From Prochlorococcus sp. MIT 1314 (GTDB lineage Bacteria > Cyanobacteriota > Cyanobacteriia > PCC-6307 > Cyanobiaceae), in the NCBI RefSeq assembly GCF_034093315.1, contig NZ_CP139300.1, positions 1,240,001 to 1,304,000 on the forward strand: a stretch of DNA of 64,000 nucleotides, in the 5' to 3' direction. This document shows positions 42,348 through 43,565 of this stretch, piece by piece (within the stretch, counting starts at the first letter, position 1; each line of letters opens with the position of its first letter). The notes beneath the pieces were generated by a model. The model searched no databases. It was not told where the DNA came from and saw nothing but the letters and a program-made list of their open reading frames with translations. The position numbers and the translations under genes are program-made.

Positions 42348-42419
42348 TCCTCGGTAGCTCAGCGGTAGAGCGATCGACTGTTAATCGATTGGTCGCAGGT
42401 TCGAATCCCGCCCGGGGAG
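42348..42419 (+). tRNA. trnN-GUU: tRNA-Asn (GUU)
   Basis: A complete 72-base cloverleaf. The acceptor stem TCCTCGG pairs with CCGGGGA, with one T-G wobble. The D stem GCTC/GAGC is followed by a 7-base anticodon loop CTGTTAA whose anticodon is GTT (Asn). The T arm has TTCGAAT. CCA is not encoded. Its last 11 bases, CGCCCGGGGAG, recur at 43397-43407. A rho-independent terminator follows at 42448-42470. Confidence 0.97.
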
Positions 42420-42447
42420 CTTTACTTGAATCATCTTGAATATTCAT

Positions 42448-42470
42448 AAAGACCCAAAAGGGTCTTTTTT
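42448..42470 (+). terminator. tRNA-Asn terminator
   Basis: AAAGACCC, a 4-base AAAA loop, GGGTCTTT, then a run of T, 29 bases after the tRNA. A closely similar terminator at 43433-43458 follows the tRNA 3'-end copy. Confidence 0.85.
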
Positions 42471-42705
42471 ATTGACATTACTTTCATGTGATCAAATTCT
42501 CGTGAAAACACAGGCTGATAATAGTTCAAAATTTTTGATGAAAGTTGGTTTTTTGATGTGTTTTAGCTATTTGTAAAAATGTGTTTTTTATGTTTTGTAG
42601 CCTTTAAAAAAATGTTTTTTAGGCAACTTCTGGACTCCATCCTTTTCGGTTATACGTCCAAGATATTTTGCTTGCAAAAACAAATAATTAGATAATATTT
42701 GAATT

Positions 42706-42903
42706 ATGAAAACATCAGTCAAGATACCTCCTCACCTAGTAATAGAACCCTCTAAAGAGGTCATTTTCTATATGCCTAAAAAGTCTGATGCTGCTCAGGA
42801 AATTTCTATCTGGTTGAAAGAACTAAATCTTCCCGACTACAAAGGAATGGTCATGAACAGCAAATGTATGTTCAACAGATTGAACAATAAGCAATGTGAA
42901 TAG
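42706..42903 (+). CDS. small island protein, 65 aa
   Basis: A 65-residue frame from ATG 42706 between the tRNA-Asn terminator and a 7-bp-stem hairpin (42907-42924). It starts MKTSVKIPPHLVIEP and has EISIWLKELNLPDYKGMVMN, a plausible helix. No Shine-Dalgarno sequence is obvious. It is convergent with the 49-aa gene at 42916. Not recognised. Coding is supported by balanced composition only. Confidence 0.5.
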   Translation: MKTSVKIPPHLVIEPSKEVIFYMPKKSDAAQEISIWLKELNLPDYKGMVMNSKCMFNRLNNKQCE

Positions 42904-42906
42904 AAC

Positions 42907-42924
42907 GCCTATTTATCAATAGGC
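42907..42924. terminator. bidirectional hairpin between two small convergent genes
   Basis: GCCTATT, loop TATC, AATAGGC: a perfect 7-bp stem. It lies at the junction of the 65-aa rightward gene and the 49-aa leftward gene and contains the stop of the latter. A weak T-rich stretch follows only on the plus strand. Confidence 0.55.
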
Positions 42925-43065
42925 AAATTGATGATTTTTGTACATTTTTCTATAATCATCGTGCAATCTTTCAGTCGCTAATCTTCTATTCTTTATTGCA
43001 TCTCTAATCAAATCCATTTCATTGAATTTTCTATTGAGAATAGTGAAAGGAGTAATAAGTTTCAT
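42916..43065 (-). CDS. small basic protein with strong ribosome site, 49 aa
   Basis: The complement strand from ATG 43063-43065 to TGA 42916-42918 encodes 49 residues. The start has GGAGG four bases upstream (43070-43074), one of the best Shine-Dalgarno sequences in the window, which supports a real gene. The product is basic and helical, MKLITPFTILNRKFNEMDL through KNRRLATERLHDDYRKMYK. There is no membrane segment. It might bind nucleic acid; no family is recognised. Located between tRNA-Asn and its 3' copy. Confidence 0.65.
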   Translation of the reverse strand: MKLITPFTILNRKFNEMDLIRDAIKNRRLATERLHDDYRKMYKNHQFAY

Positions 43066-43067
43066 AA

Positions 43068-43074
43068 GACCTCC
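43068..43074 (-). promoter_or_regulatory. Shine-Dalgarno site of the 49-aa gene
   Basis: GGAGGTC on the complement strand, with GGAGG four bases from the ATG. It decides the start of the 49-aa gene. Confidence 0.6.
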
Positions 43075-43140
43075 TATATCTACACTTATATTTTCCTCCT
43101 TTTGACTTGAAATTCATAGGGTATTTCTACCCGAGTATTA

Positions 43141-43283
43141 GTGCTTTGTGGTTGTCACGACTATTTTTTCCCTTACAAGAGGAGTAGAAATAATTCAGGA
43201 GTCAAAGCACTTCCCCGACTTTGTAGACAAGGAAGTGAACAAGACTCGAAGAGGGCAAACAAATGCCCTCTTATTTTATTTTT
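43141..43283 (+). ncRNA. candidate structured RNA with terminator
   Basis: The plus strand carries two competing pairings: GTGCTTTG (43141-43148) with CAAAGCAC (43203-43210), and a longer hairpin in which GAGTC (43199-43203) pairs GACTC (43243-43247) and CACTTCC (43208-43214) pairs GGAAGTG (43231-43237). The first and second use overlapping bases, as in switches. A terminator follows at 43251-43283. A 70-codon frame overlaps but looks non-coding. RNA strand, start and function are inferred. Confidence 0.45.
43251..43283 (+). terminator. terminator of the structured RNA
   Basis: GAGGGCA, loop AACAAA, TGCCCTC, then TTATTTTATTTTT: a 7-bp GC-rich stem with a T-rich tail. It follows directly on the two-stem element. 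Confidence 0.8.
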
Positions 43284-43393
43284 AGGCAAATTCAGGAACC
43301 AAAATATTAGTTTTTATGTGTTTTTTTCTATGAGATATAAACTATTTGATTGACTATGAATGTCTATAAAAGGTTATGAAAAATCTACCTATC

Positions 43394-43409
43394 TTTCGCC
43401 CGGGGAGTT
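43394..43409 (+). repeat. copy of the tRNA-Asn 3' end
   Basis: CGCCCGGGGAG at 43397-43407 matches the last 11 bases of tRNA-Asn (42409-42419) exactly, about 990 bases downstream and in the same orientation. It is followed by its own terminator (43433-43458). This is the signature of an element that inserted into the 3' end of a tRNA gene and restored it. No integrase is nearby. Confidence 0.65.
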
Positions 43410-43432
43410 CTTTTTTAGCATCAAATAATTAT

Positions 43433-43458
43433 AAGACCCAAAAATCGGGTCTTTTTTT
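43433..43458 (+). terminator. second tRNA-type terminator
   Basis: AAGACCC, loop AAAAATC, GGGTCTT, then a T run. It follows the tRNA-end copy with nearly the same spacing as the true tRNA terminator, so it looks like a duplicated tRNA tail. Confidence 0.8.
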
Positions 43459-43530
43459 GTAAAAAATAAAGAATTTCATAGTTTCTTACTTTAACAGCAG
43501 TCAACTTGCTTCAAATCGCCTCTTTAAGAC

Positions 43531-43546
43531 TTTCGCCCGAGTAGTT
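43531..43546 (+). repeat. degenerate second copy of the tRNA-Asn 3' end
   Basis: This 16-base stretch, TTTCGCCCGAGTAGTT, matches 43394-43409 at 14 of 16 positions, 137 bases downstream. It may mark another insertion event. A third, weaker resemblance (ACCCGAGTA) lies near 43130. Confidence 0.4.
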
Positions 43547-43565
43547 GTATTATTTTTTTTCTAAG

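Follow-up and report, generated by a model that had tools for sequence, protein, structure and literature searches.

Cis-mobilizable elements (CIMEs), defined along with tandem accretion in one part of the IME review PMC5704250, lack integration and transfer genes, keep their attachment sites and stack in tandem at a single target. Dehalococcoides islands at ssrA, as presented in part of PMC3146451, likewise stand in tandem and are bounded by direct repeats of their target, and 15 of them lack integration modules. Among tRNA-targeted islands, the relevant passages of PMC10872708 describe both the tycheposons of Prochlorococcus, which are cargo islands at tRNA genes, and additive islands at tRNA-Lys of Methylophilaceae, which have recurring copies of the tRNA end and vary in size from 330 bp to 42 kb. 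A marine picocyanobacterial case is the tRNA-Met island of Prochlorococcus MIT9313, a proposed site of phage P-SS2, with five copies of a 36-bp piece matching the tRNA (PMC2784084, in part). Picocyanobacterial integrase elements at tRNA-Phe and tRNA-Cys carry restriction-modification cargo with a small serine recombinase nearby (PMC10187409, in part).

Here we analyze a tRNA-Asn locus of Prochlorococcus within a window of 64,000 bases (G000:C1:1240001-1304000, the whole stretch studied), from a genome of one contig and 1,704,447 bases. Positions 42420-43544 most likely comprise two tandem, non-autonomous integrated elements, resembling CIMEs, at the 3' end of the tRNA. Elements 1 and 2 fit cis-mobilizable elements as that part of PMC5704250 defines them: each has two att sites from the same target (exact/exact for element 1, exact/degenerate for element 2), integration and transfer genes are absent (the annotatable ORFs, of 65 and 49 aa, match no family above cut-off), and recombinase-bearing relatives occupy the same site (L075, L082, L098, L113, and L233). 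Unlike the CIMEs described there, however, these relatives are recombinase islands, sizes go down to 137 bp, and no live partner is seen in the window strain.

The Dehalococcoides ssrA islands are the nearest described arrangement that we met, although in the account of PMC3146451 used here they have a tmRNA target, a 20-bp repeat, other cargo, and other bacteria as hosts. The initial annotation had likened the island to tycheposons, which is not supported so far: a tRNA 3'-end target with end repeats is shared, but elements 1 and 2, at 988 and 137 bp, fall below the 4-200 kb given in part of PMC10872708 and hold no tyrosine recombinase. The Methylophilaceae islands have a repeat of 20 nt, and phased repeats go unmentioned in the same part of that source. 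The MIT9313 island differs in its tRNA, its longer repeat, and its wealth of transposases (PMC2784084, in part). The tRNA-Phe and tRNA-Cys elements recall our locus L082 in cargo and serine recombinase, but they use other tRNAs, and their integrase family is, in the portion of PMC10187409 concerned, not captured by PHROGs models, whereas the L082 and L098 recombinases match phrog_1. Integrons offer an analogy only; the sites here are tRNA-end cores with phased repeats. The recombinase-bearing relatives, with a recombinase and an AlpA-like gene beside att, resemble AlpA/P4-type tyrosine-integrase islands; the window elements are without either gene.

The tRNA-Asn end and its copies in the window

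The last 11 nt of tRNA-Asn(GTT) occur at only two places in the whole genome by exact pattern search, and the reversed core pattern, serving as control, has no match anywhere in it. With up to two mismatches, the window holds 5 matches versus 0.69 expected, a number reached by 0 of 100 shuffles. To score degenerate copies, a matrix was built from 22 exact distal copies, with the tested locus left out, and both strands of 60 stretches were scanned. The second copy, a 14/16 match to the first at 43531-43546, scores 27.1, above the control maximum of 14.1 on either strand (tRNA genes and accepted copies excluded). A third att copy near 48.43 kb, noticed by eye, was rejected, as the matrix misses the spot, which overlaps a decayed RNA copy.

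Features at and beyond tRNA-Asn, in window coordinates, with the basis for each
Feature	Position	Strand	Basis or remark
tRNA-Asn(GTT)	42348-42420	+	ARAGORN; Rfam puts the end at 42419 (42348-42419)
attB core, last 11 nt of tRNA-Asn(GTT), CGCCCGGGGAG	42409-42419	+	Rfam end and whole-genome pattern search
Element 1, 988 bp, integrase-less, tRNA core to core copy 1	42420-43407	+	exact core copy, matrix score 37.2, empty sites at 15/60 loci
Right-side repeats CTTGAAT-CAT-CTTGAAT-ATT-CAT, 10-bp period	42425-42447	+	read from sequence
tRNA terminator	42448-42470	+	sequence; terminator-like sites at segment right ends elsewhere
Candidate right arm-type repeat, ATGTGTTTTTT type, same type as L071	42575-42597	+	analogy with repeat pairs of other elements
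65-aa ORF, cargo	42706-42903	+	no family above cut-off
49-aa ORF, cargo, divergent from RNA R1	42916-43065	-	ORF list; no family above cut-off
sRNA-like family R1	43127-43293	+	terminator stem at 43248-43272
Candidate left arm-type repeat, resembles 42575-42597	43311-43334	+	analogy
Three 10-bp-phased repeats CTATG/CTATA/TTATG	43354-43378	+	18 nt before core copy 1
Core copy 1, exact, far end of element 1	43397-43407	+	genome pattern search; matrix score 37.2
Element 2, 137 bp: terminator, phased repeats, core	43408-43544	+	matrix, ORF list, arm comparison
Terminator after core copy 1	43433-43458	+	sequence
Three 10-bp-phased repeats TTAAC/TCAAC/TCAAA	43491-43515	+	sequence, phasing analysis
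Core copy 2, degenerate, CGCCCGAGTAG	43534-43544	+	matrix score 27.1
Flexible DNA: 304-aa and 441-aa genes, cytidylyltransferase, radical SAM/SPASM	43545-48312		without att copy by matrix
Conserved flank, DUF7326 gene	48801-49239	-	homology to empty-site locus L069 restarts at 48801
Flank gene used as ruler, OmpR/PhoB-type response regulator	49571-50353	+	best NCBIfam model RpaB, below cut-off

What the initial annotation had read from the letters is borne out: the exact recurrence of the tRNA end and the 14/16 match, the similar terminators after the tRNA and the first copy (starting 29 and 26 nt beyond the core), two small ORFs and a structured RNA candidate between tRNA and copy, and no integrase there in either the ORF list or the family search. 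It had proposed an integrase-less tRNA island, rightly, since insertion at the tRNA-Asn 3' end is site specific and the integrase absent. Its single small element, however, is better read as two in tandem, of 988 and 137 bp, with the 43531 copy bounding the second.

Each element is bounded by 11-nt copies of the tRNA end, one of them degenerate. A terminator follows closely on the core, and the far core is preceded, at 18 nt, by three repeats in 10-bp phase. In element 1, we read the terminator behind the tRNA as brought in by the insert. In automatic self-alignment of element 1 (rank 3 of 34), a different repeat came out above its candidate arm-type pair. A direct repeat, TTTTTAGGCAACTTCTGGA / TTTTTAGGCAAATTCAGGA at 42616-42634 / 43279-43297, brackets the cargo, and similar sequence comes after the RNA copy in L033. 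In element 2, no ORF of at least 40 aa is listed, and its left arm is best matched by L095, with 89% identity over 66 bp. From its sequence, we read element 2 as a putative mini element consisting of a bare attP. When tRNA ends of the window genome (two mismatches allowed) were scanned for phased repeats, the result was mostly noise; both window sites score 11, as do chance hits.

The pair formed by the 49-aa ORF and R1 recurs elsewhere in the genus. Of 25 same-genus genomes (own included), 20 have R1 in 1 to 3 copies, as against 0 of 15 others searched; in the window, a second, decayed copy lies at 48313-48477 on the + strand. Its structure is weakly supported, as just 4 of 33 predicted pairs show two-sided changes, and no Rfam 15 family matches at gathering score. 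Homology to Yfr11 or Yfr16 was considered and dropped, with no match to their MED4 positions; in the MED4-sized genome, R1 matches away from the Yfr positions that Table 1 of PMC2518516 gives. Several relatives have R1 convergent to tRNA-Ser(CGA), about 20-40 nt beyond the 3' end of the tRNA.

DNA from element 2 onward (43408-48800) was searched against 98 relatives at E <= 1e-20, with three first-look candidates scored in each genome, and the sole match was a 335-bp stretch of G042 at 71%; weaker similarity to G042 begins near 48.2 kb of the window. The four proteins of this interval have no match in other tRNA-Asn loci. From the last copy to the regulator the window measures 6037 bp, which is too far, and the far border of the insert is lost.

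Empty sites, filled sites, and attachment-site anatomy

The core is present in 104 of 149 genomes, own included. By our count, 77 of 90 same-genus genomes have a core match, and 59 of these were sampled, yielding 60 regions; L088, with its core outside a tRNA, was dropped and the window added, for 60 tRNA-Asn loci. Core matches on other contigs of the sampled genomes were examined in part. The genomes compared are other species of the genus, and all comparisons are between species. An ABC ATPase gene precedes tRNA-Asn at 58 of the 60 loci (our count), and the response-regulator gene follows wherever the stretch reaches that far.

The comparison named in the initial annotation was with strains whose site is empty and has one tRNA end only; such sites are found, in other species of the genus, at 15 of 60 loci, with 989-1119 bp (median, 1104) between tRNA and regulator. 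Content likewise differs among loci rather than being constant, a comparison made between species. Distal tRNA-end copies occur at 37 loci, 35 with the regulator in reach and 2 without it in the stretch. Of the 35 filled loci that could be measured, 25 have 880-1200 bp (a range of our choosing) between last copy and regulator, 21 of them within 989-1119 bp; in many filled loci, what follows the last copy is similar to the sequence behind the tRNA of empty sites. Counting against this picture, the last copy is too far from the flank in 10 of 35, the window included, and long inserts lack a copy at 3 of 60 loci; 5 of 60 are unresolved. At this place, relatives thus have empty sites or other elements, a few with a tyrosine recombinase beside att, and the case for site-specific insertion at tRNA-Asn is strong.

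Together the 37 loci contain 46 segments, from 137 to 14,637 bp long: 12 below 300 bp (137-257 bp), 24 of 300-3000 bp, and 10 larger. Beyond the 22 exact copies there are 24 degenerate ones, so that the core is mutated in 24 of 46; all are on the + strand downstream of the tRNA, the only place where scores exceed the control maximum of 14.1, and the lowest is 16.7. Because the tRNA genes themselves score 14.6-16.9, about as low, the weakest accepted copies (16.7, 18.5, and 18.6) are less certain.

By their sequence, the tRNA-end copies appear to be attachment sites in which three 5-nt repeats, 10 bp apart, stand ahead of the core. The units lie at -43, -33, and -23 to the left of the core, and in 26 non-redundant tRNA-Asn arms, left-arm self-identity reaches 0.51 (lag 10) and 0.48 (lag 20), versus 0.20-0.37 at other lags. 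Units are more alike within a site than between sites (0 of 20,000 permutations). On the right side the phasing is weaker, with a self-identity of 0.41 at lag 10 (30 non-redundant elements).

The 24 degenerate copies came from a matrix that includes the arm, and a check at tRNA-Ser(CGA), with copies picked by the 11-mer only, therefore matters. This set has 16 distal copies at 15 loci (L176 and L191-L204), from 14 relatives chosen for two or more close hits plus the own genome, and the copies lie 261 to 7497 nt downstream. In the window genome, the copy is 11 nt and a control hit is equally long, so the case rests on the relatives. Left arms again show self-identity of 0.503 at lag 10 and 0.417 at lag 20, versus 0.20-0.33 at others (14 non-redundant arms), while the right side has no clear phasing (0.349 at lag 10, 0.344 at lag 17). 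tRNA-Ser(CGA) thus appears to have the same class of att site as tRNA-Asn, and none of three recombinase groups is found in the 15 tRNA-Ser stretches.

Among the 36 tRNAs of the window genome, three besides tRNA-Asn have downstream copies of their 3' end of at least 11 nt. At tRNA-Pro(TGG) (L174, G000:C1:517723-532900), the 3' half is repeated downstream in four copies, each of 40 nt or more, a long-core class unlike tRNA-Asn. At tRNA-Ser(GCT) (L175, G000:C1:950700-965873), a 12-nt copy of the end region, possibly due to chance, lies 1645 nt downstream.

Repeats at the two ends of one element also tend to match. Among 34 segments of at least 560 bp, 13 have their best-scoring partner in their own opposite end (L064 via overlapping windows), and when the end windows are made narrower, matched ends average 30.2 versus 18.3 for mismatched ends (0 of 20,000 permutations, related elements kept); no convincing pair is found in L092, L104, L117, L121, and others. 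A terminator-like site lies within 95 nt of the core at the right end of 39 of the 46 segments and in all 15 empty sites, compared with 68 of 1000 random 95-mers, implying that most inserts supply a new tail for the tRNA.

Recombinases, cargo, and competing explanations

Four of the 46 segments (L075, L082, L098, and L113) have a tyrosine recombinase of 414-439 aa next to their distal copy, and by three HMMs the other 42 have no intact recombinase. A search of genome contigs gave three loci and one further recombinase-bearing element, L233 (L231 equals L113 and L232 equals L082, both already in the set). Arg274, Lys303, Arg374, and Tyr409 (L082 numbering), the catalytic positions, are invariant in all seven aligned recombinases. 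The family occurs in 13 of 109 genomes (own included), 11 of them same-genus; the window genome has no match to it at E <= 1e-10, and its two other PF00589 genes, at 1.527 and 1.668 Mb, are outside the window. Recombinase groups A and C are absent from tRNA-Asn loci. In 3 of 4 cases, the ORF that separates recombinase and core reaches or exceeds the Pfam cut-off for AlpA, L082 lying exactly at the cut-off; L098 is the exception. For a recombination factor of another island, the part of PMC11963761 concerned gives about one molecule bound per 10 bp; on that ground, the AlpA-like protein is a candidate for reading the 10-bp repeats.

Cargo without a recombinase includes a type ISP/IIG restriction gene (L112), Mrr-helicase genes (L080 and L084), a carbamoyltransferase (L121), and an RTX/cadherin-like protein (L068), and recombinase-bearing L082 holds type I restriction genes and a serine recombinase. 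Restriction-type cargo recurs at the tRNA-Asn site (L112, L084, L080, and L082), suggesting a defence hotspot.

Searches of phage sequence gave little. By blastn, 42300-43700 matches phage records only in tRNA-Asn among the 20 matches listed. Integrases in phage records are distant, with the 180 best places all below 60% identity and ten listed at 27%, and a recombinase search of viral contigs found none. Viral contigs were also scanned for TCA-N8-CA-N20-core, and the 5 hits, which lie in DNA of 51-64% G+C, were judged to be chance.

In the mechanism that we propose, a tyrosine recombinase would exchange strands within the 11-bp core or close to it and so insert circular elements, and each insertion would rebuild the tRNA end and push older inserts away from the tRNA. 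Elements 1 and 2, whose content makes them non-autonomous, would derive from or parasitise this recombinase system, having lost or never had a recombinase, and might work like CIMEs. Both are probably stranded in this strain as long as no helper arrives; they may be mobilised in trans.

That the copies are chance or duplicated tRNA ends, made without site-specific recombination, is scarcely credible: apart from the shortness of the core (11 nt) nothing was found in favor, and genome-wide uniqueness of the core, empty sites, and phase-locked repeats all stand against it, as does the fact that 11 bp is very short for general homologous recombination. A decayed tycheposon, or one of the cryptic Prochlorococcus tRNA elements described alongside, is a possibility that we hold below even: genus, tRNA 3'-end target, and island remodelling agree, the integrases of both kinds are cited in part of PMC10187409, and the corresponding part of PMC10872708 gives a size of 4-200 kb and seven tRNA targets, but the window elements measure 0.14 and 1.0 kb and are without a recombinase. 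A limited search of the open literature found no report of a tRNA-Asn island in Prochlorococcus, a weak negative.

Whether such elements still move bears on two further readings. The elements could be purely dead remnants, collapsed by deletion and immobile since recombinase loss, a tentative reading that degenerate cores favor, along with a 58-residue recombinase fragment inside the tRNA-Asn element of G022, which suggests decay, and mini L094, which equals the two ends of L112 fused at a shared repeat block. Yet core copy 1 is intact, and several integrase-less segments keep long open genes. Somewhat less likely is a live, integron-like system of integrase-less cassettes with complete attP arms, moved by the recombinases of other elements. 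The 42 segments without an intact recombinase would fit it. So would the left arms of integrase-less L080, L084, L112, and mini L094, which over about 104 bp are 82-88% identical to the arm of recombinase-bearing L082, and the finding of mini elements of a given type at different array positions (second in L066 and first in L107; second in L114 and first in L099). Against it, the window genome yields no member of the recombinase family, mutations mark 24 of the 46 core copies, and the mini elements are equally explicable as vertically inherited deletion leftovers.

Our preferred reading remains that of two tandem, non-autonomous elements. A broader and rather unlikely extension is that tRNA-Asn and tRNA-Ser(CGA) of Prochlorococcus are docking points of a cassette system, in which a cassette would be one gene or none in a complete attP, the 10-bp-phased repeats would be an address for an AlpA-like factor or recombinase, most cassettes would lack a recombinase and be moved in trans, and bare attPs of ~200 bp would be the smallest satellites.

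The attachment-site anatomy is now given for a family of tRNA-targeted elements in Prochlorococcus, among the most abundant phototrophs, and it makes decayed att sites (24 of 46 here) recognisable that an exact repeat search misses. Inserts at this hotspot mostly lack an intact recombinase (42 of 46), some being little more than one large restriction-type gene, and the element-specific repeats are a possible means to pair stranded elements with a recombinase able to move them.
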